A stretch of DNA of 46,124 nucleotides from a virus, in the IMG/VR virus record IMGVR_UViG_3300009194_000017, positions 1 through 46,124 of that record. One strand, written 5' to 3'. Positions 1,218 to 27,068 of the stretch are shown in pieces. The notes beneath the pieces were generated by a model that did no database searches, was not told the origin of the DNA, and saw only the letters and a program-made list of their open reading frames with translations. Both the position numbers and the translations under genes were made by a program. How positions within the stretch are numbered: position 1 is the first letter of the stretch; the number at the start of each line of letters is the position of its first letter.

Positions 1218-1230
1218 TCCTTATAACCAA

Positions 1231-1930: not shown

Positions 1931-1962
1931 TTAGTCACAGGTATGCCCATACAAGTTGCTTG

Positions 1963-2058: not shown

Positions 2059-2427
2059 TGCCTATACAAATGCTAAAATTATGACATTACAAATAGTTAA
2101 CGTCCTGCAGGGATCGGTGCGGCATGGACCGGGCAGCTGATGTGTGCAAAAAATAACCAAGACCTTGGATCCATGTACTAAGCGCTTTGAGCTTTGTGCT
2201 CTAAGTAGTTGAATTCATTGAAAAAGCTCCTAAGTTGTTGTTTTTATAGATACAGTTCATTTTTATTTTTAGTTTTAACCTCAGGAGCGCTTTTTATTTT
2301 TATTTTTTTGTTGCTTATGTAACTTTGTAAACTAAGTTTATAAGTTGTTGAATTCTATAGCTTAAATTCCATGAACCTGGCCATTTCCAGACTAATTTTA
2401 GCATGGACCATAATTCCTTAAATTTAT

Positions 2428-2650
2428 AAGTTGTTGTTTTTATTGATACAATTCATTTTTATTTATATTTTTATTTATGTAGCTAAGTTGAATTATAAAA
2501 TTAAGTTAGTGTACCTCCTGCAAGGGTCCCTGCACAGTGTTCTTACTCTCTCCTGTTCTCCTATACAGACACCTTATTTTATTTATATAAACTTAACTAA
2601 TAAATAAAAATATAAATAAAAATGACTTGTATCTATCATAACAACAACTT
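2428..2650. repeat. AT-rich 51-bp inverted repeat (origin candidate)
   Basis: The left arm at 2428-2478 (AAGTTGTTG, GATACAA, CATTTTTATTTATATTT) is repeated in inverted orientation at 2600-2650 with only a few mismatches. About 120 bp lie between the arms, including a C/T-rich stretch near 2545-2560 and CTATACAGA. A third, partial copy in the left-arm orientation lies at 2231-2271. Long AT-rich inverted repeats in a non-coding region are typical of phage origins, but also of other cis-acting sites. Confidence 0.75.
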
Positions 2651-2755
2651 GTGGCGCAGCGAAGTAGTTTTCATTTATACTTTTTTGTTGCTTATGTAAC
2701 AAATGCACACAAATTCTAAGGTTCTTAGCACCAAGCGCTAAGCCCGTAGCTCTTT

Positions 2756-2844
2756 GTTATAACCAAAAGTTTACCAGAGGTTCAATTGCTTATAACCAAG
2801 AACATAGCCCCAAGCTCCTAGTTATAACCAAAAGTTTACCAGAG
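2756..2844. repeat. 24-bp direct repeat pair
   Basis: A 24-bp sequence (GTTATAACCAAAAG continuing to TTACCAGAG) occurs exactly at 2756-2779 and 2821-2844, separated by 41 bp. Spaced identical direct repeats beside the AT-rich section could be initiator sites; no protein partner can be named. Confidence 0.85.
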
Positions 2845-2961
2845 ATTACAAAAGGGTTAAGTTGGCACTTTTACCCACCCCATCGACATTTAAGCTAACT
2901 TGTAATAGCAACTTGTAACTTTAAAGTAGCTATAAACAATGCGCACCAGCCTACCTCTAGT

Positions 2962-3030
2962 AGCTCTGAGCAGCTACTTACTAGGTAGCACGTAGGGTAA
3001 TATGGGTAGCTACAAAAGTAGCTCCAGAGC
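2962..3030 (+). repeat. Dispersed hairpin element, copy 1 (divergent)
   Basis: Core CGTAGGGTAATATGG at 2991-3005 matches the core of the other copies except that it lacks the leading AGCC. It is flanked by imperfect inverted arms: GCTCTG...AGCTACTT on the left and AAGTAGCT...CAGAGC on the right. It lies in non-coding DNA. Confidence 0.6.
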
Positions 3031-3123
3031 GCTCTCATTAGCTCTCTAATACCGAGTCACTAAGCACCAAGCGCAGGGATCTCAGGTCCTAGTGCCAGAT
3101 CAGTTCATGGACCACTCACGCAC

Positions 3124-3147
3124 AAAAAAGCCGGCCCATAAGCCGGC
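3124..3147 (-). terminator. Rho-independent terminator of the leftward early operon
   Basis: Read leftward: GCCGGC-TTATGG-GCCGGC followed by six T residues. It lies 25 bp beyond the stop of the last leftward early gene (3172), as expected for an operon end. Confidence 0.9.
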
Positions 3148-3171
3148 GTAAAACAGTCAAACCACTGTATC

Positions 3172-11966: not shown

Positions 11967-12201
11967 AAATAAAGACAAAGAGCATTGGATTGATAAAGCA
12001 TCTAGAAAGTTTGAGGCGTTCGCTACAGGTAGCAATTGTAAGCGTGGCAAAGCACAACGCGAAGCTTTTGATGCTTTTGGCGGATTCATGATGAGCATTG
12101 GCTCAATTGCAATTTTGCTCGGCATCGTGGTAGCTTTTGGCATTTGGGGCTTAGCGGTAATTGGAGCTATCATTGCCGTAAACGTACTGACAACTAAGTA
12201 A
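11959..12201 (+). CDS. Small membrane protein
   Basis: 80 residues: a charged N-terminal half of about 40 residues with a Lys/Arg-rich stretch, then a long hydrophobic half (FMMSIGSIAILLGIVVAFGI, then WGLAVIGAIIAVNVL) giving two transmembrane segments. GGAG 9-12 nt upstream of the ATG. Function unknown; early phage membrane proteins often affect host physiology or exclusion. Confidence 0.75.
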   Translation: MSENKDKEHWIDKASRKFEAFATGSNCKRGKAQREAFDAFGGFMMSIGSIAILLGIVVAFGIWGLAVIGAIIAVNVLTTK

Positions 12202-12210
12202 GGAGACTAC

Positions 12211-12396
12211 ATGAAATTTGAAGGACCCGACAATGAATGGCTTGTCATCGAAGCTATTCGAATCCCTGCAGCTGTACCTCTTAGCTTTACAAAAGCCAAA
12301 GAACGTATATATGTCCTACCTGGAGGTCTACGCGTAACGCCTTCATGGATCGAAAAGAATAAAAAGAAGGTAGTTCACGCGTTCAAAACACATTGA
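12211..12396 (+). CDS. Small hypothetical protein
   Basis: 61 residues, beta-rich start (EWLVIEAIRIPAAVPLSF) and a strongly basic end (WIEKNKKKVVHAFKTH). AAGGAG lies about 6 nt upstream. Family not recognised. Confidence 0.65.
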   Translation: MKFEGPDNEWLVIEAIRIPAAVPLSFTKAKERIYVLPGGLRVTPSWIEKNKKKVVHAFKTH

Positions 12397-12443
12397 CCCA
12401 AGGTTTGTGGATTTCACTGACCTTAAATCCAAGGTATAATTAA

Positions 12444-12926
12444 ATGATATACTTGCTCTCGAAAGATTTTCGCAAGAGCTGCGAAATGCTTTGCGACTTG
12501 CATCTGAACGAGTCAATCATTGACACTGCTACAACATTAAGCTACTATCTATGGACACACCATAGAGACACAGTTGCATTCGATGCGGCACACTTTTTTA
12601 GTGAAAAAAGCAGATTAGATAACATAAAGTCTGATATACCAAGGGCGTATTACCCGTTAAGAGGCACAAAGGACTTTCGTGAATGGGTCATTCAAAGTCA
12701 AAGCCACTACGCTTTTCTAATTCAGTATCTTGAATTTTTGCTTGAAGAACATGAGACACGGTTCTTTACAAGTCATAAGACATCGTACGTATTAAGCTCG
12801 ATGCCAAAATTCAGTTTCAAGAACTTAGAAGACGTAGCACAAATAGAAAAACGAATTGACGCCTGTTTAGACATGTATAATCAGCCTAGAAAATCTTGGA
12901 CGTGGACTAACCGGGATCAACCTTGA
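12444..12926 (+). CDS. Conserved phage protein, pyrimidine-dimer-glycosylase-like pattern
   Basis: 160 residues. The layout (LSKDFRKSCEMLCDLHLNES at the start, then a helix with TATTLSY, then W-x3-S-x2-HYAFL and EEHETRF with His at about 110) resembles a phage family with the pattern DKHV..K..E..Q.LS, W..S..NY.WL, EY..R...H, which is sometimes linked to pyrimidine-dimer DNA glycosylases. The match is weak and the enzymatic role unproven. TATAAT at 12435-12440 abuts the start, so any transcript from it would be nearly leaderless. It precedes the primase-helicase by 1 bp. Confidence 0.6.
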   Translation: MIYLLSKDFRKSCEMLCDLHLNESIIDTATTLSYYLWTHHRDTVAFDAAHFFSEKSRLDNIKSDIPRAYYPLRGTKDFREWVIQSQSHYAFLIQYLEFLLEEHETRFFTSHKTSYVLSSMPKFSFKNLEDVAQIEKRIDACLDMYNQPRKSWTWTNRDQP

Positions 12927-12927
12927 C

Positions 12928-15321
12928 ATGTCGTATAAAATTTACGCTCGGCTCTTTGCAGAAAATGGATTTAAAGTATTTCCATTAATAAACTCAAAAT
13001 CAGGACCTGTTAAACCTTTTGGATGGTCAGGACGTAAAGTAAAACCAGACAAAGAACACTTAGCTATACCTGCTACAGATGACGTAGAATTCATTGAGCA
13101 GTGGGACGACATAGTCCAACAGAAATATAAAACGACAGTGCATGGGTACGGGGTACTTGGCACTGGGTGCGTAGTTATTGACGTCGATACCAAAGATGAC
13201 AAAGGCGGCGTTGAGAACTTTAGTGAATTATTCGAAACTTTCGACCTTCCAAAATGTGCACTCGTTGTAAAGTCACAATCTGGCGGCTACCACTTTTACT
13301 ATGGACGGCCTAAAGGCTATGAAACGCGCCATGTAAAGTCTGTTAGTAATTTGAAAGTGCATGGCACTGAGTACACAGGCATTGACATTCGTGGAGACGG
13401 TGGCTTTGTTGTAGGCCCTCAAAAAGCTGGCGAGTGGGAGCAAGGCGTTTACACGATGATCCGTGGTGCGCCTGACGTGCAGCTTAGTAAGTTGCCTGTA
13501 AGCTTCATGGAAGCTATAAGTAACACGACAACTACTCGCAATGACCTTGACAGCATTACGGTCGTTAAAAGTGACGATGACAATGACTATCGAGCACTTT
13601 TGAAGAAAGGCGAATTGCCAGAAGTTTTGCCAAAAGGCGCCAGGAACGAAGGCTTTTTTCTCTTTATCAACGCGCTAAAGAGTAAGGGTCTAGGGCGAAG
13701 CTCAGCAAAAGCTTTGGCAAACCAACTTGCTGAACGATGCGAAGGCGATGATCTAGAAGAGTCCGTCAACATCGATGACATGCTAGATCGTGTCTTTGAG
13801 ATTGATTCTGACAATCCATACGACATTGCTTCAGACATACTGAATCGTGGCTTTTATCAAGTTATCAACTACAAGAATAGACCTGTTTACTGCCTCCCAG
13901 AAGAAAATCCATACCTGACATCCAGAAGATACCATGACTCAGCGACCATGAAGGAGCTGCTGGCTAAATATGCGCGAGTAGTTGTTACAGGGTCAGGTAA
14001 AGAGAAGCTAGTCAATCCAATAGACGTTATACTTCCGCGTATACCTGATGAGTATAAAGTTGATAGTATTGGCTTTATGCCTGGTGCTGATAACGTATTC
14101 TCTATTGGATCGGATGCCAATGCTACAACGTTCATGAATACGTATCGTGAACCTGAATGCGAGCTACCAGAGGATGAGGTTGACCATGAAATTTGGGACG
14201 ACTTTATCAAGCTTGTGACTAGGATTTTTGGAGAACCAGATACTGAGAACCACACGCTTGGTCTTGACTTTTTATCTTGGCTGATCCAAAGGCCGGGTGA
14301 AAAGATGTCAGTGACGCCTCTACTGCTATCAAGAGTTCGAGGTATTGGTAAATCACTCTATTTTAACTTGATCTATCAAATCATGGGCGTTAACAAGTTT
14401 GGTGAGGGTCAAGCTAAAATGGTAAAGCTTGACGAGATCACTGGCAGGTTCTTCGATCCAACAAACGGCTTGGTCAACATGGTCGATGAGGTACAATTCG
14501 GCATTCATCGAAATGTGAGACAGGAATTCAGTAATTTCTGGCGCCACCTTAAGAACCTTGTAACAGCTGAGGTTATACCTGTAGAGGTTAAAGGCGGTGC
14601 GACCATGCAGATGCCTAACACTGCAGCACTGATTATGGCTGGTAACACCGACGGCTTTATTCCAATGGAGGAAATGGATCGTCGAGTGTGGGTTGTTGAT
14701 ACCAATGCTCCGCCTCTTGAAGTTGGCTATGTCGACAGATTATTTGACATTGTTAAAAGCACAAATAGTTGCACGAACCCGTATGAAAGACTTAGACTAA
14801 TTAAGTCATTGCGGTACCATCTCAAGCATCGGAAAATTGAACTTGACATGTCAACGATCCGAGCTCCAATGACTGAAATCAAGCAAGAAATGGTTCGCCA
14901 GTCACTGACAGATCAGGAAGATTGGCTCATCGATTATTTTGAGCAAGGTATTAATTTGCTCGCTGTTGAACCAATTCTTTCTCATAGCTCGCTGCTCTAT
15001 ATTCTTAGAATGGGCGACAAAATTCTACATGAAAATTGGAGGGACGATGCAGAACTAATAATCCGTGATTTGAAGCGTAAAGGGCTTATCATGCCTATAA
15101 GAAAGCACGGCGCCATTAAAAAGCTAACAAATGTGCCTGTCGTGCTACCAAATGGCGAAGTGTCGATGACTAACAAAGATGAGATTCTGTACAAAATAAG
15201 CATGCTAGATGATCTAGATGATGTCACAGACGATGATCTACGTCGCATGTTTTACAGGAACTTGCAAACACTTAAACACCGTCGGTCTTCTGCCACAGAT
15301 GCACAATCACTAGTAGGATGA
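12928..15321 (+). CDS. Primase-helicase (prim-pol N-terminus, superfamily 3-like helicase C-terminus)
   Basis: 797 residues. Residues about 1-200 form a bifunctional primase-polymerase domain: catalytic DxD at D85/D87 (VVIDVDTKD), SGGYHFYY with H122, and GIDIRGDGGFVVGP at 151-164. A linker of about 200 residues follows. The C-terminal half carries a P-loop helicase: Walker A RVRGIGKS (K475) and Walker B NMVDEVQF (D520, E521). This makes RNA or DNA primers and unwinds DNA at the phage fork, as in NrS-1-like and other primase-helicase fusions. It is followed directly by the DNA polymerase gene. Confidence 0.9.
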   Translation: MSYKIYARLFAENGFKVFPLINSKSGPVKPFGWSGRKVKPDKEHLAIPATDDVEFIEQWDDIVQQKYKTTVHGYGVLGTGCVVIDVDTKDDKGGVENFSELFETFDLPKCALVVKSQSGGYHFYYGRPKGYETRHVKSVSNLKVHGTEYTGIDIRGDGGFVVGPQKAGEWEQGVYTMIRGAPDVQLSKLPVSFMEAISNTTTTRNDLDSITVVKSDDDNDYRALLKKGELPEVLPKGARNEGFFLFINALKSKGLGRSSAKALANQLAERCEGDDLEESVNIDDMLDRVFEIDSDNPYDIASDILNRGFYQVINYKNRPVYCLPEENPYLTSRRYHDSATMKELLAKYARVVVTGSGKEKLVNPIDVILPRIPDEYKVDSIGFMPGADNVFSIGSDANATTFMNTYREPECELPEDEVDHEIWDDFIKLVTRIFGEPDTENHTLGLDFLSWLIQRPGEKMSVTPLLLSRVRGIGKSLYFNLIYQIMGVNKFGEGQAKMVKLDEITGRFFDPTNGLVNMVDEVQFGIHRNVRQEFSNFWRHLKNLVTAEVIPVEVKGGATMQMPNTAALIMAGNTDGFIPMEEMDRRVWVVDTNAPPLEVGYVDRLFDIVKSTNSCTNPYERLRLIKSLRYHLKHRKIELDMSTIRAPMTEIKQEMVRQSLTDQEDWLIDYFEQGINLLAVEPILSHSSLLYILRMGDKILHENWRDDAELIIRDLKRKGLIMPIRKHGAIKKLTNVPVVLPNGEVSMTNKDEILYKISMLDDLDDVTDDDLRRMFYRNLQTLKHRRSSATDAQSLVG

Positions 15322-15325
15322 TTTT

Positions 15326-17239
15326 ATGTACACGAATGAGAAATACAACTGTTTAGACCTGGAGACTGATCCGTTGTATGAAGAGATGCGTGAGTACGCA
15401 GCTCTTGAACCATGGCGTTTACGCAATGACCAAGCCAGAATTATGTCAGCAGACCTAATTCGTGGCGATGATTCGATCGATCAAATCGTCAATGAGGGCG
15501 GTGCTAAGGACGAGGATTTCAGAGCTAAGCTTCAAAGTATGCTCGAGAGCCTTGAAGGCGAAATCGTATGGGCTCATAACGCCATCTTTGACGTAGCTTG
15601 GTGTATTGCAATGCTGCAGCCAGAGCGTGGTGGTCCTATTCCAGACTGCATTAGAAAGATCGACTGGCGTGACACTAGCTTGCTGATGAAGTGGCTTATC
15701 AACGGTCAAAAGGCAGAGAAAGCAAAAGTATCGATGTCTCTTGCAAATCTTGTCAAGACATTCATGCCTGAGCATCCTAAGGCTCAAGAGTTTATTGACT
15801 TCAAGTCACAAGGGTTTGACCAAGTTGGTAAGAACCAAGAATACTGGCTTGAGCGTGGTACTCTCGACGTTATAATGACCAAGGCACTGGCATGTAAATA
15901 CACACCTCAAGTGCCTGAATCTATGCGCCGTGGTATGCTTACAGAGTTTAAGTGCATTGTGCCACTTGCTAATGCTTGGCTCAATGGCATTCGTATTGAC
16001 CAAGACCAACTTGCTGAGTGCGAGAAGTATTATGGCAACCGTAAGAAAGACATTGCCAAAGAGCTAGGCGTATCAGAAAAACTATTTAGCTCGCCAAAAC
16101 AGTTGGTTCAATATCTGTTCACGGATTTAGAGCTTAAGCCTGTATCTCAAACTCCTTCAAGTAATCCCGGTACATCTAAAGGTGATTTGCTATGGATTCA
16201 GCGTGATCTTCTTGCCAAGGAAGGTCCAAACGGTGAACGCTATCAGAAAGTCAGCAAAATCCTTGAAGCAAAAGAATCAACAACACTCTACTCAAAATAT
16301 GTCAAAACATGCAAAGAAGCGTTGGCTCATAATGGCGACGGTTACATCTACGGTAGCCCACGACTTTTTGGTACTTACACTGGTCGGATGACTTATAGCA
16401 ATGCCACAATGCGTAAATTCAAGACAGGTATTGCCTTGCACCAAATCCCTCGTAAGGCTACAATGATTCGAGCAATGCTTGTGCCGCATGAAGGCTTTAA
16501 GATTTATGAAGCTGATGCTTCGGGCCAAGAGTCAAGGCTCATGGCTATTAGGTCTGGAGACGCCACAATGCTGAAAGTCTTCAAAGAAGGTCTGAACTTC
16601 CACTCTATGACTGGCTCTAAGATTGTTACCATGGACTATAATGAGTTCATGGAGCTTTATAAAGCCGAAGACGATGATGGCCCGTACACCGAGAAGCGCC
16701 AAATGGGTAAGCTGACCAACCTGTCTTGTAACTACAGGATTTCAGGTAGAGCTTTGGCGAAACAGTCATTTGAGAAGTACGGTGAATTCCTGGATGATGC
16801 GACTGGCAACTTCTTGGTCAAAACATTTAAAGAGTCTTATCCAGGAGTACCATTGTTCTGGAAACAGGCCGTACAAGACTCTCGTCTAAACGGCTATACT
16901 GAAGCCTTTGGTGGTCGACGCTTCAAACTTTGTAATTGGCACACCGATGCCTGGATGACAGAGTCCTCAGCTATTTCGTTCCAAATACAAGGTTCTGGGG
17001 CCTCAATGAAAGAAATTGCAATCGCAGAGCTTTACGAGAAAGTGCCAGAATTCCACTTCTCACTTGACTTGCACGATGCAACATTTGGCTATATCCCAGA
17101 AGCCAATGCAGAAGAGATTAAAGCTAAAGTCGATGAAGTTCTTGATAACATCGATTATAGCAAGCACTGGGGTTTTGAACCGCCAATCGATCTGCCGTAC
17201 GAGTCTAAAATGGGTGAATCATTTAAGGATGTGAAATGA
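15326..17239 (+). CDS. Family A DNA polymerase with 3'-5' exonuclease
   Basis: 637 residues. The exonuclease domain shows DLET (D11, E13) and AHNAIFD (N85, D89). Polymerase motif A is EADASGQESR with D397; motif B is RQMGKLTNLSCNYRISGRAL (R458, K462); motif C is LDLHDATFG with D584. The usual motif C is HDE; here the Glu is replaced by Ala, which is uncommon. Length and domain order fit phage replicative Pol A enzymes. If the adjacent modification operon makes 5-hydroxymethyl-dCTP, this is the polymerase that would incorporate it. Start has AGGATG about 6 nt upstream. Confidence 0.95.
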   Translation: MYTNEKYNCLDLETDPLYEEMREYAALEPWRLRNDQARIMSADLIRGDDSIDQIVNEGGAKDEDFRAKLQSMLESLEGEIVWAHNAIFDVAWCIAMLQPERGGPIPDCIRKIDWRDTSLLMKWLINGQKAEKAKVSMSLANLVKTFMPEHPKAQEFIDFKSQGFDQVGKNQEYWLERGTLDVIMTKALACKYTPQVPESMRRGMLTEFKCIVPLANAWLNGIRIDQDQLAECEKYYGNRKKDIAKELGVSEKLFSSPKQLVQYLFTDLELKPVSQTPSSNPGTSKGDLLWIQRDLLAKEGPNGERYQKVSKILEAKESTTLYSKYVKTCKEALAHNGDGYIYGSPRLFGTYTGRMTYSNATMRKFKTGIALHQIPRKATMIRAMLVPHEGFKIYEADASGQESRLMAIRSGDATMLKVFKEGLNFHSMTGSKIVTMDYNEFMELYKAEDDDGPYTEKRQMGKLTNLSCNYRISGRALAKQSFEKYGEFLDDATGNFLVKTFKESYPGVPLFWKQAVQDSRLNGYTEAFGGRRFKLCNWHTDAWMTESSAISFQIQGSGASMKEIAIAELYEKVPEFHFSLDLHDATFGYIPEANAEEIKAKVDEVLDNIDYSKHWGFEPPIDLPYESKMGESFKDVK

Positions 17240-17727
17240 TCACTCAAGATGAATTAAAGTCTATACTTCATTATGACCCAGAAACAGGGATTTTTAGATG
17301 GCTTACAGGTGATAATGGCCAAATAATTGGAGGCATTGCTGGATCATCGAGTGGTGGAAAAAGAATTAGAATAGGAATTAATGGTAAGCAATATAAAGCT
17401 CACAGATTAGCTTTTATGTATCAACTAGGACGATGGCCTAAAAATTTAGTCGATCATAAAAATAGAAATCCATTAGATAATGCATGGAAAAATTTAAGGG
17501 AGGCTACGTATTCTCAGAATCTTTGTAACACGCAGCGGAAATCATCTACTGGATACAAAAATGTATATCCGCAATCTAACGGCACATACTATGTAAAGAT
17601 TTGCATGCATAATAAAGCTGTGTATGAGCGAGGATTCGAAACTGTAGATGCAGCTTTTGAATATTCAAAAATACTTCGAAAACAACTTCATGGCGAATTT
17701 TCAAATCATGGCGAGGAATTATCATGA
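17236..17727 (+). CDS. HNH homing endonuclease with AP2 domain
   Basis: 163 residues. HNH motif: H56 in KAHRLAF, VDHKN (D73, H74) and N86 in NAWKNLRE, followed by an AP2-type DNA-binding domain (STGYKNVYPQSNGTYYVKI to GFETVDAAFEYSKI, ending HGEFSNHGE). This is the usual layout of free-standing phage homing endonucleases. It is inserted exactly between the polymerase and Cas4-like nuclease genes with 4-nt overlaps at both ends, and its DNA is more AT-rich than its neighbours, both signs of an invading selfish gene. Confidence 0.92.
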   Translation: MITQDELKSILHYDPETGIFRWLTGDNGQIIGGIAGSSSGGKRIRIGINGKQYKAHRLAFMYQLGRWPKNLVDHKNRNPLDNAWKNLREATYSQNLCNTQRKSSTGYKNVYPQSNGTYYVKICMHNKAVYERGFETVDAAFEYSKILRKQLHGEFSNHGEELS

Positions 17728-18443
17728 GTAAGATAATGGCACTTTCGCACTCACGCATCAACGACTTTGACCAATGCGCGTTGAAATTCAAGCTCAAGTA
17801 TATCGACAAAGCACCGGAATTCAAAATGGATAAGTCTAAGTCGCCGCATCTTATAAAGGGTGAGAAGATTCACAAATATCTTGAGGATTATGTCAATCAC
17901 AGAAAAGAAGGCCGTGATGACATTGGTGAGAATTCTCTCGATGCAGTTGAAAATGGTAAAGAGTTTGCAGACAGCATCATTGACCTGTATGGCCCTGAAA
18001 ATGTATTCGCTGAATTACAGTTGGCTATCGACAAAGATTGGCGGCCTGTAGACTGGTTTAGTCCAGATGCTTATATGCGAGCCATAGTCGACTTCTCAGC
18101 GTATGGCCATAACATCTCTGAAGCCATAGATTGGAAAAGTGGCAAGTTTACAAATTACACGCCAGATTCTGGTTTTGGCCAGCTTGAATTGACAGCTGGC
18201 TTTATCTTCGCATTGAAGCCTGAGATTGAGCGTGTACAGACACAGTATGCGTATGTTGAGCATCGTAAAGCTGTCAAGAAAGTATATACTGCTGATGACT
18301 ACATTCCAATCAGGCAATACTTTGATGCTAAGTCTGAAGAGGTAAATGCCGAAGAGAAGTTCCTCCCTAAAAAGAACCGCTTTTGCCGATGGTGCGAAGC
18401 TACAAAATCAATGTGTCCTCATGCAACAAAAGAAGACTTTTAA
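17724..18443 (+). CDS. PD-(D/E)XK exonuclease, Cas4/RecB-like with Fe-S cysteines
   Basis: 239 residues. LSHSRINDFDQCALKF at the start carries C18; then GEKIH (H50), E97, VD (D123), IDWKSGK (D136, K138), and QLELTAGFI, the RecB-type nuclease motifs. C221, C224 and C231 near the C-terminus together with C18 match the four-Cys 4Fe-4S arrangement of Cas4 and AddB nucleases. It probably resects or processes DNA ends during replication or recombination. No CRISPR array is nearby. Confidence 0.9.
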   Translation: MSKIMALSHSRINDFDQCALKFKLKYIDKAPEFKMDKSKSPHLIKGEKIHKYLEDYVNHRKEGRDDIGENSLDAVENGKEFADSIIDLYGPENVFAELQLAIDKDWRPVDWFSPDAYMRAIVDFSAYGHNISEAIDWKSGKFTNYTPDSGFGQLELTAGFIFALKPEIERVQTQYAYVEHRKAVKKVYTADDYIPIRQYFDAKSEEVNAEEKFLPKKNRFCRWCEATKSMCPHATKEDF

Positions 18444-18480
18444 GGCATCGTGTAAAGCGATCGAAGTCGGAGATGATGCC

Positions 18481-18609
18481 ATGGCTTGTAAGCGGTGTCA
18501 ATATATTTGGCGCAAGGGTATCAAGCCACCTAGGTGCAAGAATAAGATGACTAAATCCATACACAAGAAGCTTCCTGTAGTCATCTTCGGCTTAGATCGA
18601 GTAGAATAG
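18481..18609 (+). CDS. Small zinc-ribbon-like protein
   Basis: 42 residues from ATG 18481 with CGGAGA about 8 nt upstream: MACKRCQYIWRKGIKPPRCK, then a basic tail. CxxC plus a later Cys and a W-x-R-x3-PP pattern resemble short phage zinc-ribbon proteins, although the fourth Cys of a full zinc site is missing. An ATG at 18421, overlapping the nuclease gene, would give a 62-residue form with one more Cys. Probably nucleic-acid- or protein-binding; function unknown. Confidence 0.6.
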   Translation: MACKRCQYIWRKGIKPPRCKNKMTKSIHKKLPVVIFGLDRVE

Positions 18610-18615
18610 GTTGAT

Positions 18616-18696
18616 CGCTCTGAATAGCTGCTAATTCTAGCTATATTACCCTACGGGCTGACCTGCTAAAAGTTTAGTGGGAGCGCTTTCAGAGCG
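18616..18696 (-). repeat. Dispersed hairpin element, copy 3
   Basis: Read leftward, the core AGCCCGTAGGGTAATATAGC lies between perfect 9-bp arms CGCTCTGAA (18688-18696) and TTCAGAGCG (18616-18624). It fills the gap between the zinc-ribbon gene and the VRR-NUC gene and is oriented against local transcription. Confidence 0.85.
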
Positions 18697-18721
18697 GCGC
18701 ATTTTATAAGAGGTAGCTAAA

Positions 18722-19051
18722 GTGAGCACTCCTGAAAACAAGGTAAAAGAATGGGCTAAGCGTAAGTTAAAGAAAGAACTGCCAGATGTTTGGCTTTATG
18801 CGCCACCCGGCGGATTTTATGGAAAGGCGGGCGTACCCGACCAGTTAGGCGTTTGGCGTGGAGTATTCTTTGCTATTGAGTATAAGGCCGATGCCAAGAA
18901 ACACCCAACTGAAATTCAGATGGTGCAGCTAAAACACCTCGATAGACAAGGTTGTATTGCCTGTGTTTTGAAGGGCAAAAATACAGGTCGGCTAGATAAC
19001 TTAATATCGATAATTAAGGAGAAAGCCCGTGGCTTTAAAGATACCGTTTGA
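18722..19051 (+). CDS. VRR-NUC domain nuclease
   Basis: 109 residues with a GTG start and AAGAGG about 9 nt upstream. It carries the VRR-NUC (PD-D/E-XK-like) signature: GVPDQLGV (D40), FFAIEYKA (E53, K55) and TEIQ (Q66). Stand-alone VRR-NUC proteins are common in phages next to SNF2 helicases and may act as Holliday-junction or flap nucleases. It overlaps the helicase gene by 23 nt, so the two probably work together. Confidence 0.92.
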   Translation: MSTPENKVKEWAKRKLKKELPDVWLYAPPGGFYGKAGVPDQLGVWRGVFFAIEYKADAKKHPTEIQMVQLKHLDRQGCIACVLKGKNTGRLDNLISIIKEKARGFKDTV

Positions 19052-20432
19052 CCAATACGATTGGCCGATTGCAAACCCAGATTGGAAGCCCTTTAAACAC
19101 CAGGTTGAAACTACAAGGTTTTTGATCACTAATAAGCGTGGCTACGTGCTAAACGAGTTGGGCACGGGTAAAACAATGTCAGCTCTATGGGCGACAGATT
19201 TTTTGATGAAAAATAGCGTCATTAACAAAGTCCTGGTCGTTGGTCCTCTATCAACTATGGGCACAGTGTGGTATGACTCTATTCGTCAAAACCTTGGTAC
19301 TAAGTCCGTAGGCGTGGCGCATGGCCCTAAGCAAAAGCGTATTAACGTCATAAAGCAGCAATTCGAGTACACGATCATCAACCATGATGGCGTCAAGATA
19401 CTTGAAGATGAGTTGATTAATGCTAAGTACGATGTGATTATCATCGATGAGTTGACAGCTTTTAAAACCTACAGCACTGATCGCTCAAAGGCTATGCGCC
19501 GAGTGGCTAAGCATGCTAAAGCTGTATGGGGCTTAACAGGTAATGTGACGCCTAATAAGCCTACTGAGGCGTTTGGCCAAGCAAAACTTGTAAACCCTAA
19601 TCACCCTAATGTACCACGTTATTTCACGAAGTTTAGAAATCTTGTTGAGCGTGAAGTAGCTCCAAGGATTTGGGTGCCAAAAGACGGTTGTGAAAAGGAA
19701 GTCTTTAAGATTCTCCAGCCAGCAATCCGTTACAAGCGTGACGAATGTATTGACATCCCTGATCTTAATCATATCACAGTTAATGTTGATATGAGCGAGC
19801 AGCAGAAGCAAGCTTATGAAGACGTGCGCAAAGCTCTAATTCATGAGTATGAAAATGACATGATCACAGCTTCAAATGCAGGCGTCAAGCTCTTTAAGCT
19901 CTTGCAAATTGCAGCAGGGTGGGTTAAGTCAGACGAAGGCGAAGTTATTGAGCTTGATAGTCAGCCAAGACTTGATCGATTGCTCAATATCTATGAAGAG
20001 CTTGATACTAAGAAATTGGTTGTCTTTACAAGTTTTAGAGCGTCAGTTGAAGGCGTAACTAAGTTTCTGAAGAAGAAAGGCATTAAAGCTGAGTATATCC
20101 ACGGCAGCGTTAAGCAGGATGTTCGAGCCAATTTGATCAGGCAATTCCAAATGGGCGACCTTGAAGTGCTTGTCATACAACCAAGATCTGCTTCACATGG
20201 TATTACTCTGACTGCGTCAAATACCATTGTATGGCACAGCTTAGATATGAGCGGTGAAACTGTATCACAGGCTAATGGTCGTATATCACGAATTGGTCAG
20301 TCAAGGGTACAAACAATCTATAATTTCGTAGGTTGTAGCTCCGAAGCCCATGCGTTAAAAATGCTGACAGATAAGCAGTCTAGGGCCAATGATGTGCTAG
20401 ACCTGTTTAAAGAAGTTGTGTTCTCAAACTGA
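19029..20432 (+). CDS. SNF2/DEAD-type helicase
   Basis: 467 residues, GTG start with AAGGAG 7 nt upstream. Walker A LNELGTGKT (K48), Walker B VIIIDELTAFK (D140, E141), GLTGNVTPN (motif III), VVFTSFRASVEG (motif IV) and QANGRISRIGQ (motif VI) define an SF2 SNF2-family ATPase. In phages these follow VRR-NUC genes and are thought to remodel DNA or displace proteins during replication or recombination. Length is normal for the compact phage form. Confidence 0.93.
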   Translation: MALKIPFDQYDWPIANPDWKPFKHQVETTRFLITNKRGYVLNELGTGKTMSALWATDFLMKNSVINKVLVVGPLSTMGTVWYDSIRQNLGTKSVGVAHGPKQKRINVIKQQFEYTIINHDGVKILEDELINAKYDVIIIDELTAFKTYSTDRSKAMRRVAKHAKAVWGLTGNVTPNKPTEAFGQAKLVNPNHPNVPRYFTKFRNLVEREVAPRIWVPKDGCEKEVFKILQPAIRYKRDECIDIPDLNHITVNVDMSEQQKQAYEDVRKALIHEYENDMITASNAGVKLFKLLQIAAGWVKSDEGEVIELDSQPRLDRLLNIYEELDTKKLVVFTSFRASVEGVTKFLKKKGIKAEYIHGSVKQDVRANLIRQFQMGDLEVLVIQPRSASHGITLTASNTIVWHSLDMSGETVSQANGRISRIGQSRVQTIYNFVGCSSEAHALKMLTDKQSRANDVLDLFKEVVFSN

Positions 20433-20443
20433 GTGTTTTAGAG

Positions 20444-20471
20444 TTTACATTACTAGCAGCCAGTGTATAAT
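20444..20471 (+). promoter_or_regulatory. Sigma70-like promoter for the ssDNA-binding and modification operon
   Basis: TTTACA (20444-20449), a 16-bp spacer, TATAAT (20466-20471). It lies 12 bp after the helicase stop and about 34 bp before the next start. It could give extra transcription of the ssDNA-binding and cytosine-modification genes downstream. Confidence 0.75.
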
Positions 20472-20504
20472 AGCACTTGTAAATTCAAATAAGGTGATAA
20501 CTAA

Positions 20505-20894
20505 ATGGCTGACGTAGCAAGCAAAGTAAATCAGTACATTCAGATTCGAAACGACCTCGATGCTAAGCGCAAAGAGTATCAAGAAATTGAGCGAGAATTA
20601 AAAGCTCAGCTCGAAGATATTCAATTTGAGATTCTTAATATCTCAGATGAATTAGGCGTCGATAGTTTGAAAACTGAATTTGGTACAGCGTATCGGTCAG
20701 TTAAAACATCCTATCGAATCCTTGACTGGGAAGCCTATTTAGAATGGGCCGAGCAGCATGGCGCTTTGCATACATTGCAAAAGCGTGTAACAAAGTCCGC
20801 AGTGGACGAGGTAGTCAACGAAGACCTTGACGGTGACCTGCCACCTGGACTTGATCTGTATAGTGAAGTAACCATCAACATAAGGAAGGGCTAA
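20505..20894 (+). CDS. Hypothetical coiled-coil replication-region protein
   Basis: 129 residues. Residues about 1-50 are a coiled coil (IQIRNDLDAKRKEYQEIERE); the rest is a compact domain (TEFGTAYRSVKTSYRILDWE, then WAEQHGALHTLQKRV). AAGGTG stands 10 nt upstream of the ATG. It is one base before the likely ssDNA-binding gene and probably serves the same process. The family is familiar from phage replication clusters, but I cannot name its function. Confidence 0.75.
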   Translation: MADVASKVNQYIQIRNDLDAKRKEYQEIERELKAQLEDIQFEILNISDELGVDSLKTEFGTAYRSVKTSYRILDWEAYLEWAEQHGALHTLQKRVTKSAVDEVVNEDLDGDLPPGLDLYSEVTINIRKG

Positions 20895-20895
20895 T

Positions 20896-21768
20896 ATGTC
20901 TACTCCAGCTATCCCAGAACATCTCAAGAAATACCAAGAGCAAAGCGCCACGTCCTCTGAAGCTCAAAGCTTGGCTGACAGTGGTAATCCTACAATTCCT
21001 CGCCTGTCTATTAAGGGTGGCAAGTTTCGCTTTATTCAAGGCGAAGAGGAGTCAAAGAAGTTTAATTCCGTCGATGTAGTTGTTGTTGGCGTCGATCCTG
21101 AAGGCGGTCGAATGAATAAGACTTTTTACAAGTCAGCATTTGATCCGTCAAACCCTGAGCCACCTGATTGCTCATCAATTAACGGCGTAGTTCCAGATTC
21201 ATGGGTCGCAGAGCCACAAGCTTCGGCTTGTGCACGTTGTCCTATGAATGCCTTTGGCTCTGCCACTAATGCTCAAGGTCAACGCACTAAGGGCAAAGCT
21301 TGTAAAGACAGCAAGTGGCTATGGGTTGTCAAACTCGATGAGATTGATGAAGAATCTCCAACAGTTTGGTGTCTCAATGTGCCAGCATCCTCTCTCAAAG
21401 CTCTGAGCGCATTCGGCCGTCAAGTGAATAAGACTGGCTTGCCTCTACATGTTATTCATACACGTATCGAGCTTGACGATGAGTTTGATTATCCTGTGCT
21501 TGATTTGCAAATTGCGGGTTATCTCGATGAGAAACAGTGTGCAATTGCGGACGAAGTCCATGATGACAAACCTTGGCGTGATCTTGTAGGCGATACAAGT
21601 GTACCTCAGGGTGCTTTGGCTCAACAAAAAGCTGAGTCACAAGGTCTGGTAGAGCATCAGCCTGCTGAGCGCGAAGTGCAAAGCACTAAGACTGAGCAGT
21701 CTACAACTGCACAAAAACCGTCATCTGCTGACACGTCTAACCCTGACGCAGCTGTAGAGAACTGGTAA
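20896..21768 (+). CDS. Putative ssDNA-binding protein
   Basis: 290 residues. The N-terminal domain (IPRLSIKGGKFRFIQGEEE) resembles a phage family described as single-stranded DNA-binding. A Cys cluster (CARCPMNAFGS, then KACKD) may bind zinc. After about residue 235 there is a disordered Gln/Ser/Thr/Glu tail ending DAAVENW, reminiscent of the acidic-aromatic tails that let SSB proteins recruit partners. It sits between the helicase and the modification genes. Naming as SSB is from pattern and context, not a strong domain match. Confidence 0.65.
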   Translation: MSTPAIPEHLKKYQEQSATSSEAQSLADSGNPTIPRLSIKGGKFRFIQGEEESKKFNSVDVVVVGVDPEGGRMNKTFYKSAFDPSNPEPPDCSSINGVVPDSWVAEPQASACARCPMNAFGSATNAQGQRTKGKACKDSKWLWVVKLDEIDEESPTVWCLNVPASSLKALSAFGRQVNKTGLPLHVIHTRIELDDEFDYPVLDLQIAGYLDEKQCAIADEVHDDKPWRDLVGDTSVPQGALAQQKAESQGLVEHQPAEREVQSTKTEQSTTAQKPSSADTSNPDAAVENW

Positions 21769-21777
21769 CTATCCACA

Positions 21778-21799
21778 AGGCGCTACGATCGTAGCGCCT
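21778..21799. promoter_or_regulatory. Perfect 22-bp palindrome before the carbamoyltransferase gene
   Basis: Half-site AGGCGCTACGA followed directly by its complement, with no loop. No T tract follows, so it is more likely an operator or mRNA structure than a terminator. Partial relatives (AAGATCGTAGCGC at 7390-7402, GTGCTACGATAGTGC near 6037) occur in early intergenic DNA. Confidence 0.6.
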
Positions 21800-21820
21800 A
21801 ACTTCTCTTGGAGATTGTTT

Positions 21821-23497
21821 ATGTCTATAGATTTGGCTATTTCACTTGGCCATAACTCAAGCTGCGTGGCCATTGACCATGTAGATGGTAACATCTTGTG
21901 TGGATTTGAAGAAGAGCGTCTCACAGGTGTTAAGTCAGATTCTGCGTACCCTGTGCTTTCAATCGAAAAGTGTATGTCGACGCTTCAACGTCCATCTGTA
22001 AGACATATCTATATCAGCCACTGGTTTGCAGATGGTCGACTGAAGCCATGCAAATATTACGATGACTCACATATCAAGTCTCTTGGCGCGCAACTAGTGG
22101 TCAGCGTGTCAAAAGACATTACGCACCACGATGCTCATAATTACTCAGCTTTGGCTTTTGCACAAAGTAGTCCAGGCTTTGAGTCAGACTTTTTCTCACT
22201 CGTAGTCGATGGTTTTGGCACTCAAGGTGAATGCTTGTCATTGTATCAGTCAACCACTGAGTCAGCCAAGTATGCAAAGACTCGACTTCTTCACCGTGCT
22301 TTTGGCTATAACAAGTCTCTTGGCATCTTGTATCAGTATGCTACTGCTTTTCTTGGTATGAAGATGCAGCAAGACGAATACAAGTTGCTTGGCTATGAAG
22401 CGCACGCGGACGAATTGACGGAAGATCATTTCGATGTTGTAGCAGATCGAGCTTCAAAGCTGACAGCTAAGTACTTCAAAGGTATCATGAATCCAATAGA
22501 TATTGACCGTGACAAAGACCCTATTGTCAATATCAATGCCTTGAAGATGACCAAAGACGGCGTCTTTGAAGAGCTTTGGGCTTTGCTTAATGAATTCGAT
22601 ATTGATGACCGTACTGACTTCGATGCAAAAGTCCTAGTATCAATACTTGTCCAACAAGTCGTTGAAGACGTAGTTCTGCAGATTGTGCGGACTTACGGTA
22701 TTAAGAAGCTAATCTGTAGCGGCGGCGTTTTCATGAACGTCAAGCTTAATTTGAAGCTATCACAAATGGTTGAAAAGCTTTGTGTTATGCCGCTTGCAGG
22801 GGATCAGGGCGCAGCTATCGGTTTATACCATTACCACAATCAAAATCTTAAGTGGCCGAACCACTTGTACTGGGGGCATCGTCCTTGGAACAAGCTTGAC
22901 AAATTCAATGATGTAAAAGGCATTGAAGTATACGGCGATCGAGGCTCATTTATTGACGCAGTCTTGAAGGAACTCACTAAAGGCCCTGGCTATGTAAACA
23001 TTGTCACAGGTGATATGGAGTATGGGCCACGCGCTTTGTGCAACACAACTACACTAGCCATTCCAGATCGTGAGAATACTGAGGCCATTAATAAACTGAA
23101 CGATCGTACAACTGTTATGCCTATGGCACCTGTAATGACTGAAGAGATGGCTTCAAAGTACTTGCAACCGTTCTATCAAGGTGTACATAAATCTCTTGAG
23201 TATATGATTGCTGCTTGTGTGTTAAATAAAGGCGTTGATAGCTTTGATGGTGCTGCTCACAAGTATGAAGGCCCTTGGTTTGGCTGGACTTTTAAAACAT
23301 GTAGACCCCAAATCCTTAGCGCTGGGCACCCAGTTTATGATGTCCTTGAAAAGATTGGTAAGCCACTAATCAATACCAGCTTCAATTATCATGGCGTGCC
23401 AATTGTATACGATGAGAAAGACATCGTGAATTCGCATATTAAGCAAAATGAAAACGGCGTCATTAAAACCCTAATCCTGGTGGAGTCAAATCAATGA
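21821..23497 (+). CDS. Carbamoyltransferase (NodU/TobZ family), predicted DNA 5-hydroxymethylcytosine modifier
   Basis: 558 residues; start at 21821 with GGAG 7 nt upstream. N-terminal ASKHA/Kae1-like domain: ISLGHNSSCVAI, FEEERLTG, the metal-site pattern HHDAH (H102, H106) and VVDGFG (D130), then SGGVFMNVKLN and LAGDQGAAIG. C-terminal carbamoyltransferase domain: MEYGPRALCNTTTLA, NDRTTVMPMAPVM and NTSFNYHGVPI. The family uses ATP and carbamoyl phosphate to carbamoylate hydroxyl groups. Phage members next to dCMP hydroxymethylase genes carbamoylate 5-hydroxymethylcytosine in DNA, and this gene has exactly that neighbourhood. An antibiotic or Nod-factor role is unlikely here. Confidence 0.92.
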   Translation: MSIDLAISLGHNSSCVAIDHVDGNILCGFEEERLTGVKSDSAYPVLSIEKCMSTLQRPSVRHIYISHWFADGRLKPCKYYDDSHIKSLGAQLVVSVSKDITHHDAHNYSALAFAQSSPGFESDFFSLVVDGFGTQGECLSLYQSTTESAKYAKTRLLHRAFGYNKSLGILYQYATAFLGMKMQQDEYKLLGYEAHADELTEDHFDVVADRASKLTAKYFKGIMNPIDIDRDKDPIVNINALKMTKDGVFEELWALLNEFDIDDRTDFDAKVLVSILVQQVVEDVVLQIVRTYGIKKLICSGGVFMNVKLNLKLSQMVEKLCVMPLAGDQGAAIGLYHYHNQNLKWPNHLYWGHRPWNKLDKFNDVKGIEVYGDRGSFIDAVLKELTKGPGYVNIVTGDMEYGPRALCNTTTLAIPDRENTEAINKLNDRTTVMPMAPVMTEEMASKYLQPFYQGVHKSLEYMIAACVLNKGVDSFDGAAHKYEGPWFGWTFKTCRPQILSAGHPVYDVLEKIGKPLINTSFNYHGVPIVYDEKDIVNSHIKQNENGVIKTLILVESNQ

Positions 23498-23934
23498 GCA
23501 TTGTAAAAGACGTAGTATTCTTCAATCAAGAAGTACTTGGCATTGAGCAACGCACGCCTGGCATTCTGCCAACTGATGAGCATGAGATCACTATCAAATG
23601 CCTACATGAAGAGATCGATGAGTACATTGATGCTTACGACGAATGCTGTCGAGACGACGACGCTATCGCAAAAGACCATGAGCTGAAGTATGTAGCTGAC
23701 ATGGCTGATGCTATGATTGATAACATCTATTTTGCAATCGGTGCTCTCTACAAGTTGGGTTTGACAGCTGACCAAATTGAGCGTGGCTTTAGCGCGGTTC
23801 ATAATTGCAACGTCCAAAAGAAAGCTGGCCAAAATGCAAAGCGTGCTACAGGCGCTGCTGACGCTGTTAAGCCAGAAGGCTGGGTTGGCCCTGAGCAAAA
23901 ATTGCTGGAAATTATCAAGGAGCGAGTAGAATGA
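23494..23934 (+). CDS. MazG-like nucleotide pyrophosphohydrolase (candidate dCTPase)
   Basis: 146 residues, all-alpha NTP-PPase pattern: HEEIDEYID (E39, E40, E43) in helix 1, and VADMADAMIDNIYF (D69, D72, D76) in a later helix, the metal-binding ExxE...D-x2-D arrangement of MazG and dUTPase/dCTPase relatives. In a phage that replaces cytosine, a dCTP-degrading enzyme is expected so that the polymerase sees mainly the modified dCTP. The substrate cannot be read from sequence. It overlaps the genes on both sides by 4 nt. Confidence 0.8.
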   Translation: MSIVKDVVFFNQEVLGIEQRTPGILPTDEHEITIKCLHEEIDEYIDAYDECCRDDDAIAKDHELKYVADMADAMIDNIYFAIGALYKLGLTADQIERGFSAVHNCNVQKKAGQNAKRATGAADAVKPEGWVGPEQKLLEIIKERVE

Positions 23935-24479
23935 GTGTTTATGTCGTTGAAGGGCCTGACGGTGCAGGTAAAAGCACGCTTGTTAATGCTTTAAAGACTG
24001 CGGATGAGTCTATTGCAACCTTGCACCCTGGTAAACCTCCTACAAGTTATGAAGCGTTGCTTGAAATGCTCAATGAGCAGATGACGCAATTGCCAAAAGG
24101 TACTTTCGTCTATGATCGAGTATCCTGTATCTCTGAGTGGGTTTATCGCCCATTCAGGCTTGACTTGAAAGCTGATCAAGAGAACGAGGTTGCAGTTTAC
24201 TTTAGTCTGCTTGAAGCTCAGATGATGATGTCTTTACATCTTGATTGGACTATTATTTACTGTCGACCAAATCATGATGCTATCTTGCGTAACTGCACGC
24301 AGTTTACAGAGCATGATACTGATGAAACGCAAGAGGTTGTCAGAAAGCATATGTTAGAAATCATTCGGTCATATGATGCAACAATGGATCGGCTTAGAGC
24401 CTTTGGTTGCACGGTGATCAACTATGACTATGAGAATGATCTTGCAGAACAATTCATCACAGCTATGGTGTCATCATGA
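23931..24479 (+). CDS. Deoxynucleoside monophosphate kinase-like protein (dTMP kinase fold)
   Basis: 182 residues. P-loop EGPDGAGKST (K14) at the N-terminus as in thymidylate kinases; FVYDRVSCISEWVYRP corresponds to the substrate-binding DR motif; TIIYCRPNHDAI precedes the lid region. T4-type phages with hydroxymethylcytosine need a dNMP kinase for hm-dCMP, and the position next to the hydroxymethylase suggests this function. It could equally phosphorylate dTMP. ATGA overlaps on both sides. Confidence 0.82.
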   Translation: MSVYVVEGPDGAGKSTLVNALKTADESIATLHPGKPPTSYEALLEMLNEQMTQLPKGTFVYDRVSCISEWVYRPFRLDLKADQENEVAVYFSLLEAQMMMSLHLDWTIIYCRPNHDAILRNCTQFTEHDTDETQEVVRKHMLEIIRSYDATMDRLRAFGCTVINYDYENDLAEQFITAMVSS

Positions 24480-25315
24480 GTCAAGATACAACTAATCTAG
24501 CGTGGCTCAAGCAATTGCTTGACACATTGACGTATGGTCGAACAGTTGAAGTGCGTGGCTCTGAGATCAAAGAGCTTGAAAATCGTAGTTTGACAATCGA
24601 TCCATTGTGGCCTTTCATCACATTCGAAGATCGTAATTATAACTTCGATTACTGCAAGAAAGAGCTATTGTGGAAAATCAATGGCGATCCATTCGATGGG
24701 CGTATCAAGAAACATGCTAAAATGTGGTCGTCAGTACAAAATGACAATGGTTCATTCAATTCAAATTACGGTGCTTACTGGTTCAGGAATTACGGTATTC
24801 AAAAAGCCGTAGAACAATTAGAGTATGACAAGTATTCGCGTCGTGCATCCATTCCAATGCTGGCGTCTGAACATGTTGGCATGGATGTTCGTGATACAGT
24901 TTGCACTGAAGCGATGACGTTTCTTATTCGCAATGATCGCTTGAATTGTCATGTTCATATGCGATCTAGCGATCAAGTCTTTGGCCTTGGAACTGATTTG
25001 CCTTCTTTCTCGCTGGTTCAGCGCTTGGTACTTGGTCTGATTAGTAAGAAGTATCCTGAAGTTCAAATGGGCTCACTTACAGTGGTTGCTGCAAGCTCTC
25101 ATATTTATGCGCGTCATTTTGAGATGGCTGATAAATTAGCAACTGAAAATCCTGCCGTTAAGCCAATGAGTAATGATCTTTGGATGCCAATTCCAACATT
25201 CGAAGAAGCAAAATTTCTCACAGAGAGAAGCGGGCTTGGTCTGACTAGAGCTGATCTTGGCCGAACCAAAGATTGTTCATTGGCCAGATGGCTACTTTCG
25301 TCCGGAGAATTATAA
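24476..25315 (+). CDS. dCMP 5-hydroxymethylase (thymidylate synthase family)
   Basis: 279 residues, thymidylate synthase fold: SRR (R122, R123), catalytic Cys143 in DTVCTEAMTF, HMRSSD (R163, D166), GLGTDLPSFSL, and SSHIYARH (H209, Y211). Where thymidylate synthase has the Asn that reads dUMP (FNIASY), this protein has Asp174 (TDLPSF), the substitution found in dCMP hydroxymethylases such as T4 gp42. So the likely reaction is dCMP plus methylene-tetrahydrofolate to 5-hydroxymethyl-dCMP. The first half is more diverged than usual. It overlaps the kinase and deaminase genes. Confidence 0.88.
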   Translation: MSQDTTNLAWLKQLLDTLTYGRTVEVRGSEIKELENRSLTIDPLWPFITFEDRNYNFDYCKKELLWKINGDPFDGRIKKHAKMWSSVQNDNGSFNSNYGAYWFRNYGIQKAVEQLEYDKYSRRASIPMLASEHVGMDVRDTVCTEAMTFLIRNDRLNCHVHMRSSDQVFGLGTDLPSFSLVQRLVLGLISKKYPEVQMGSLTVVAASSHIYARHFEMADKLATENPAVKPMSNDLWMPIPTFEEAKFLTERSGLGLTRADLGRTKDCSLARWLLSSGEL

Positions 25316-25815
25316 TGTACAGGCCAACCGTCGATGAATACTTTATCGTTATGGCTATGCATGCAGCCACACGGGCGTCTTGCGCAAGGCGCCGTGTTGG
25401 CTGTATTCTGGTCAACGATCTGAATCACGTACTGTCAACAGGCATGAATGGTCCAGATAAAGGAGCGGTGAACTGCACCACGGTACCTTGCGCTGGGGCT
25501 GATAGCCCGTCCGGCACTAATCTTTCAGCCTGCGGTGCGATACATGCGGAAATTAATGCGCTCCTGCAATGCTCTGACGTGCAGAAAATTAAAACGGCGT
25601 ATGTTACTACTAGTCCTTGCATTGAGTGCACCAAGGCGCTCCTCAATACGTCCTGTGAGCGCATTGTGTATCTTACCAAGTATAGCGATGGTCACGATAG
25701 CGCCATTGAAAAGTGGCGAGCTAGAGGTCGCATTATTCAGCCAATAAGCGAATGCCACATAGAAAAAGGCTATGTGAATAAGTTTTGCTCAATCTACGGG
25801 ATGAAATGGTCATGA
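25315..25815 (+). CDS. dCMP deaminase
   Basis: 166 residues; the start at 25315 (TAATG overlap with the upstream stop, GGAGA 5 nt upstream) is chosen over an earlier in-frame ATG at 25273. Zinc cytidine/dCMP deaminase signature: HAE (H77, E79) and PCIEC (C102, C105). It converts dCMP to dUMP, feeding dTTP synthesis and draining unmodified dCMP in competition with the hydroxymethylase. Its DNA is somewhat GC-richer than its neighbours. Confidence 0.92.
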   Translation: MYRPTVDEYFIVMAMHAATRASCARRRVGCILVNDLNHVLSTGMNGPDKGAVNCTTVPCAGADSPSGTNLSACGAIHAEINALLQCSDVQKIKTAYVTTSPCIECTKALLNTSCERIVYLTKYSDGHDSAIEKWRARGRIIQPISECHIEKGYVNKFCSIYGMKWS

Positions 25816-26879
25816 TCACACTGTATAGAAAGAATTCGTTCGGCATAGGTCGCTGGTGTATTTGGAAAGAGAGCGATCATGTTATTAAGTTTGGCCACAG
25901 TGCATCATTGCAAGGCCATCTGATTGTTTCTGAAGAATACGTGGAAGATGGTAAAGCAGGCCGTAGTTTGGCTGAGCAAGTACAGTCTCGTATTGATTCA
26001 CGTATTAGCAAGATGCGTGACAAAGGCTATAAAGATACTGCCGATGAGGCTGCTAAAGCTCAAACTAATCAGCTTGGCCTAGTTACGCCAATGCTTGCGA
26101 AGCCATTAAAAGTCAGCAGTATTAAAGAGTCGTTCATACAGCCTAAATTGAACGGCCACAGATGTCTTATTGCAAATGTTGACGGCGACATAATTGCTTA
26201 CTCTCGTCAAGGTAAGCTGATTCACACAGTTGATCACGTGACAAATGAGTTTTTTGACATACTGCCTGAAAATACAGTTGTCGATGGTGAGCTTTATATC
26301 CATGGTGAGAAGCTTCAAACAATTGCCTCGCTTGTTAAACGTGAACAACCTCGGTCAAAAGAGATTAAGTACTTCGTATACGACTTTATTGATTTAAAAG
26401 ATAAGCATATCAAATTTAAGGATCGAGCCGAAATCCTTAGATCGCTAGTTAAAGACATGGGCCCAAGCGTTCAGTTCACAGATACAGATCTTGTGGAGAA
26501 TCTAAACGAAGCGATGGATATTTACAAGACCCATATTGAGCATGGTTTTGAAGGCTCAATTGTTCGGTCAGCTGGTGGCCTATATGAGTCAGGTAAACGT
26601 TCGTCTGGCTTGCTCAAAATTAAGCCACTATTTGATACAGAAGTTGAAGTACTTGATATTGTACCAGGCGATACAGGCTTAGGTATCTGCGTCTGTAGAA
26701 TGGACGGCCTGGATCGAAGCTTTAAGATCTTAGCACCTGGCACCCATCCTGAAAAGATTCAAGCTCTAGAGCATAAAGATAAATTGATCGGTAAGCGGCT
26801 TAAAGTTGAATATCGTGAACTTACAGCTGATGGTGTGCCATTTCATGCTGTCGCAACTGAATGGTTTACTACTATTTAG
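25812..26879 (+). CDS. ATP-dependent DNA ligase with WGR-like N-terminal domain
   Basis: 355 residues from ATG 25812 (ATGA overlap). Residues 1-60 resemble a WGR domain (GIGRWCIWKE, then DGKAGRSLAEQ). The nucleotidyltransferase domain has motif I KLNGHR with K112, DGELYI (motif III), YFVYDFID, EGSIVR (motif IV) and LLKIKP (motif V); an OB-fold follows. Motif I is KxNG rather than the more usual KxDG, which is seen in some phage ligases. It seals nicks in replicated phage DNA. Last gene of the rightward region, before two hairpin elements. Confidence 0.93.
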   Translation: MITLYRKNSFGIGRWCIWKESDHVIKFGHSASLQGHLIVSEEYVEDGKAGRSLAEQVQSRIDSRISKMRDKGYKDTADEAAKAQTNQLGLVTPMLAKPLKVSSIKESFIQPKLNGHRCLIANVDGDIIAYSRQGKLIHTVDHVTNEFFDILPENTVVDGELYIHGEKLQTIASLVKREQPRSKEIKYFVYDFIDLKDKHIKFKDRAEILRSLVKDMGPSVQFTDTDLVENLNEAMDIYKTHIEHGFEGSIVRSAGGLYESGKRSSGLLKIKPLFDTEVEVLDIVPGDTGLGICVCRMDGLDRSFKILAPGTHPEKIQALEHKDKLIGKRLKVEYRELTADGVPFHAVATEWFTTI

Positions 26880-26918
26880 CTAGTTGGCTAATTTGTAGCT
26901 AAAAGCTACGCTCTGAGA

Positions 26919-26995
26919 ACGCTCCTATAAAGTTTTTAGCAGGTCAGCCCGTAGGGTAATATGGCTTACTAAAGCTTAAAATAGGAGCGTTTTTA
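26919..26995 (+). repeat. Dispersed hairpin element, copy 4 (terminator-like)
   Basis: Core AGCCCGTAGGGTAATATGGC at 26946-26965 lies between perfect 10-bp arms ACGCTCCTAT (26919-26928) and ATAGGAGCGT (26981-26990), followed by five T residues. It stands 40 bp after the ligase stop and may terminate the rightward transcript. Confidence 0.85.
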
Positions 26996-27068
26996 ATGCT
27001 TGAACGGTTGAGAAGCTTAATGCTAATAAGTATTAGTTACTTATTGTGAGCTACTTTATGAGTAAGCT

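Follow-up and report, generated by a model that had tools for sequence, protein, structure and literature searches.

The DNA analysed here (the window) is the IMG/VR virus record IMGVR_UViG_3300009194_000017, 46,124 bases in length and derived from an uncultivated phage. Five plus-strand open reading frames (ORFs) lie at positions 21821-25815, the stop of each overlapping the start of its neighbour by 1-4 bases (Table 1). The first, that of the carbamoyltransferase (CT), starts with ATG at 21821, preceded by GGAG, and the starts of the later genes of the cassette sit in the stop codon region of the preceding gene (ATGA or TAATG). The series of overlaps is extended by the ORF of a DNA ligase, for which an ATG at 25812, overlapping the deaminase gene, is a possible start. 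The ligase gene is the next one in the operon and is syntenic in relatives; its product is not a modification enzyme. An earlier note on this DNA had described five overlapping operon genes of named families, and the ORFs, the Pfam matches and the PHROGs assignments, which agree with Pfam for the five-gene set, all bear out this description.

Table 1. Genes of the operon and the adjoining ligase gene (positions in the window)
Product	Position	Strand	Basis
Predicted 5-hydroxymethylcytosine carbamoyltransferase (CT; NodU/TobZ family), 558 aa	21821..23497	+	Pfam, PHROGs, homology to assayed enzyme
MazG/PRA-PH-like NTP pyrophosphohydrolase, 146 aa; probable dCTP(/dUTP) pyrophosphatase	23494..23934	+	Pfam, phmmer, AlphaFold
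P-loop kinase, deoxynucleoside/thymidylate kinase fold, 182 aa; probable 5hm-dCMP (dNMP) kinase	23931..24479	+	Pfam, PHROGs, model
TS-family dCMP hydroxymethylase (predicted), 279 aa	24476..25315	+	Pfam, PDB relatives, Asp signature
dCMP deaminase, 166 aa	25315..25815	+	Pfam, PDB relatives, zinc motif
ATP-dependent DNA ligase	25812..26879	+	DNA_ligase_A_M 5e-23 (Pfam)

The rest of the window is made up of phage genes (Prim-Pol, PolA, helicase, portal, terminase, major head protein and tape measure). A 23-bp tandem repeat, AATGATTGTCGCTATTAAGTGTT, is present in about 5 copies at both ends of the window (1-123 and 46002-46124). This shared repeat forms a terminal direct repeat of 95 bp, which points to a genome that is probably either complete or circularly permuted, a low-complexity repeat not being proof of this. 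In the region 1200-3150 plausible genes are scarce, whereas short repeats are numerous, one of them with a unit of 46 bp (1796-1929). Rfam and tRNA scans gave no matches, and scans for promoters and terminators remained at chance level. NCBIfam yielded nothing but sub-threshold names; one of these matches, to an anti-phage dCTP deaminase, lay far below the cut-off and was rejected. Megablast of positions 12000-27000 against phage records found no match, thus relatives are visible at the protein level only.

The CT matches Carbam_trans_N (6e-20) and Carbam_trans_C (1e-18) in Pfam and phrog_1601 (4e-67) in PHROGs. It is a full-length enzyme of the NodU/TobZ type with the catalytic residues present; HHxxH, D130, D328, R404, R429 and R495 are kept in essentially all of 60 relatives. 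Yang et al. (2021, eLife; PMC8670742) enriched phage DNA from the environment by selection for modified cytosine and found, in MetaGPA contigs, a carbamoyltransferase clade linked to genes of the thymidylate synthase (TS) family. One member of the clade was expressed, and LC-MS showed that it produced 5-carbamoyloxymethylcytosine (5cmC) from 5-hydroxymethylcytosine (5hmC) in single-stranded DNA, in RNA and in free 5hmdCTP. The reaction required ATP and carbamoyl phosphate; single-stranded DNA was preferred, and about 60% of the free 5hmdCTP was converted. The sequence of the assayed enzyme, taken from that paper, where it is printed, is 38% identical to the window CT over the full length (577 columns). 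The window CT is predicted to be a 5hmC carbamoyltransferase, a substrate that 38% identity alone does not fix.

In the same study W408, G421 and R423 of TobZ were the positions that best separated modified from unmodified contigs. In TobZ numbering, placed via the shared EFGPRAL motif (W, G and R spaced as 408, 421 and 423) and not by alignment to TobZ, the window CT and the assayed enzyme both have I408/C421/T423. Thr occupies position 423 in all 60 relatives where the position is readable. In contrast, Arg423 was found in 27/27 and Thr423 in 0/27 of the outgroup CTs, of which 4 came from cyanophage-type viruses and 23 from cellular genomes; position 408 varies among them. A TS hit was near the CT at 0/27 of the outgroup loci. 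Three CTs from binned genomes, which belong to the clade by similarity, have both Thr423 and a TS neighbour. In a quick tree, in which long-branch outgroups make the clade support approximate, the window CT and the assayed enzyme fall in a 28-row subclade (SH-aLRT 98), apart from other CTs. The 5hmC carbamoyltransferase clade to which the earlier note had pointed does include the window CT, as judged from the identity and from this tree.

The TS-family enzyme matches Thymidylat_synt in Pfam (5e-17). Among solved structures in PDB it is matched best by T4 dCMP hydroxymethylase (1.1e-14, against 1e-8 for the thymidylate synthases), with only about 30% shared with this T4 protein, gp42. Aligned to gp42, the window enzyme has the catalytic Cys143 and Asp174, the latter equivalent to position 177 in E. 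coli TS numbering, where the Asp of gp42 replaces Asn177 of TS. Cys146 and Asp177 are present in 60/60 and Thr147 in 57/60 of the TS hits across the CT loci; the profile used for finding these neighbours was built from Asp177 proteins and favours that type, but related Asn177 TS should still be detected by it. Independently, TS positions 177 and 147 were reported as the two that correlate with modification, Asp being the prevalent residue at 177 in modified contigs (PMC8670742). The assignment as a dCMP hydroxymethylase, with Asp177 determining the specificity for cytosine, is well supported by these comparisons. A hydroxymethyl rather than a methyl product is suggested only indirectly, by the closest similarity being to gp42 and by the partner CT, whose reaction requires a hydroxyl.

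The deaminase matches dCMP_cyt_deam_1 (1e-18) in Pfam and dCMP deaminases in PDB (1.5e-15), and it has the HAE and PCxxC zinc motif. As in T4, such an enzyme draws dCMP off towards dUMP. The earlier note's view that the set looks complete is reasonable, but the deaminase should not be counted among the modification steps.

The MazG-like protein gave matches to PRA-PH (1.6e-4, Pfam) and, by phmmer, to DR2231 (1.3e-5), an all-alpha NTP pyrophosphohydrolase that was solved with dUMP and dUMPNPP. The clear PDB matches of its AlphaFold model (pLDDT 89) are all DR2231, with a TM of about 0.7. EExxE and D72/D76 are invariant across 17 relatives; at the DR2231 residue mutated as Glu79 the protein has Ala, with the invariant Asp72 beside it. 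The model indicates an all-alpha NTP-PPase fold with an acidic metal site, and by analogy with T4 the protein is probably a dCTP/dUTP pyrophosphatase. Its counterparts in the Acinetobacter phages (L003-L005) are larger, at about 224 aa against 146 aa in the window, owing to a long insertion or duplication.

The kinase was matched by dNK (1.5e-6, Pfam) and by phrog_761 (thymidylate kinase), and has the Walker A motif GPDGAGKS. Because phmmer found no match for it in PDB, its structure was predicted (pLDDT 84). The best PDB matches of the model are YorR, M. mycoides dAK, TMK and dCK (Z 13-15.5); T4 gp1 is absent among the fold matches listed, which does not exclude T4 gp1. Judged by the model, the protein is a deoxynucleoside or dNMP kinase, and analogy with T4 makes it a probable 5hm-dCMP (dNMP) kinase.

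Conservation of the operon was studied at 59 CT loci from IMG/VR and phage records, some of which are near-duplicates, so that the counts do not represent independent events. A TS-family gene is present at 54 of these loci; of the five without one, four are cut off near the CT by the contig end. All five families occur together at 23 of the 59 loci, in identical order in all but one of the 23, and this recurrence of the same families shows that the five-gene set is not due to chance. Other arrangements include a TS gene directly upstream of the CT (10 loci). In the closest relative found, L007 (IMGVR_UViG_3300033553_000216), the same five-gene operon contains a CT 72% identical to that of the window. 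A single CT is accompanied by two different TS-family genes, both of the Asp177 type, in Bacteroides phage BF503P1 and loci related to it; the loci with two TS genes are L006 (10456-11262 and 13335-14015), L030, L034 and L050.

Xanthomonas phage Xp15 (Alachuavirus; gp35-gp39) and the Acinetobacter phages Effie, MD-2021a and HHU4 have the same order as the window (CT-MazG-kinase-TS-deaminase-...-ligase), and their cassettes lie downstream of the same replication genes. Over the matched stretches identity to the window is about 42% for the CT and 48-52% for the TS; there is no match at the DNA level. The cassette genes of these phages are mostly unannotated or loosely labelled, the Xp15 kinase for example as 'putative DNA polymerase subunit'. 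Directly upstream of the window CT, at 20896-21768, is a 290-aa gene assigned to phrog_27714 (no named function), and both Xp15 (gp40) and the Acinetobacter phages have a gene of similar size in the corresponding position.

The chemistry and nearly the same gene cluster were published in 2021 (PMC8670742), and the window is a further carrier of a known system. A literature search found nothing relevant beyond that paper, and nothing on Xp15. In the published work the contigs obtained by selection for modified cytosine contain CTs together with domains of the TS, PRA-PH and deaminase families, and the pairing of CT and TS is confined to modified contigs (PMC8670742). The window resembles that system in the CT clade, the residues at TobZ positions 408/421/423, the Asp177 TS partner and the PRA-PH and dCMP deaminase neighbours; it differs in being another phage, with 38% CT identity. 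The word 'kinase' is absent from the main text of PMC8670742, whereas a kinase is regular in the cassette described here and, as part of the full cassette at 23/59 loci, represents a component absent from that text. Few carriers of the 5cmC pathway are known, and the window adds a probably complete genome to them.

In the T-even phages the 5hmC pathway comprises gp56 dCTPase, gp42 hydroxymethylase, gp1 dNMP kinase, cd deaminase and glucosyltransferases. The predicted pathway resembles it in dCTP removal, hydroxymethylation, re-phosphorylation and capping. The cap is glucose there and is predicted to be carbamoyl in the window phage, where MazG-like and TMK/dNK-like proteins would fill the dCTPase and kinase roles. 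The O-carbamoyltransferases of the TobZ, GdmN and NovN type, which act on antibiotics, have a common fold and carbamoyl phosphate/ATP chemistry with the window CT (profile match 1e-25 to 3e-39). Unlike the window CT, TobZ, GdmN, NovN and 7xb6 show the Gly421/Arg423-type signature (TobZ residues according to PMC8670742).

Given the likeness of the CT to the assayed enzyme, Asp177 in the TS-family partner, the residue signature compared with the outgroups and the conservation of the operon, the operon very probably makes the cytosine of the phage as 5cmC. On the same grounds we agree with the earlier note in deriving 5cmC from a dCMP hydroxymethylase and a 5hmC carbamoyltransferase. The MazG-like enzyme would probably convert dCTP to dCMP, removing ordinary dCTP and supplying substrate; the TS-family enzyme would then form 5-hydroxymethyl-dCMP, which the kinase would probably phosphorylate, and host enzymes would complete the triphosphate. 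With carbamoyl phosphate and ATP, the CT would add a carbamoyl group to the hydroxymethyl group of 5hmdCTP, of nascent single-stranded DNA or of both, the order of the steps being one that we infer. The deaminase would balance the dCMP against the dUMP/dTMP supply. Where the earlier note had DNA polymerised and then carbamoylated, homology supports the carbamoylation, but this step could precede or follow polymerisation, since the assayed enzyme also takes 5hmdCTP and prefers single-stranded DNA. The replacement of C would be full, and it may protect the DNA from restriction, as the earlier note proposed. A dedicated 5hm-dCMP/5cm-dCMP kinase with carbamoylation at the nucleotide level and direct polymerisation of 5cm-dCTP, or processing of 5cmC to an undescribed base, is conceivable but rather unlikely.

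It is very improbable that 5cmC is an intermediate, its carbamate serving as a leaving group or handle with which a further phage enzyme makes another final base. Many phage ORFs of the window have no family, and the unnamed gene directly upstream of the CT keeps its position in relatives; however, no known hypermodification enzyme, be it a glycosyltransferase, PLP enzyme, amino-acid transferase or radical SAM enzyme, was found among the scanned ORFs (some small ORFs lay outside the scan), and the neighbours common to the relatives are replication genes. Still less probable is a TS-family protein acting as a dCMP methylase or dUMP enzyme beside a CT that modifies a small molecule or sugar and leaves the DNA without carbamoylation. 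Asp177 alone is also compatible with dCMP methylation, the NodU-family CTs include antibiotic-modifying enzymes, and one cyanophage CT is located in a sugar gene cluster. Yet the best PDB match is the T4 hydroxymethylase and not a TS, the CT shares clade, signature residues and TS linkage with the assayed 5hmC enzyme, unlike all the outgroup CTs, and there is no sugar gene near it. The least probable reading, partial modification of cytosine or a decayed operon with ordinary C or plain 5hmC, is opposed by all five frames being intact and retaining their catalytic residues. The shared operon ties the predicted pathway to 5cmC to the isolated phages Xp15, Effie and HHU4, in which the base is directly measurable.
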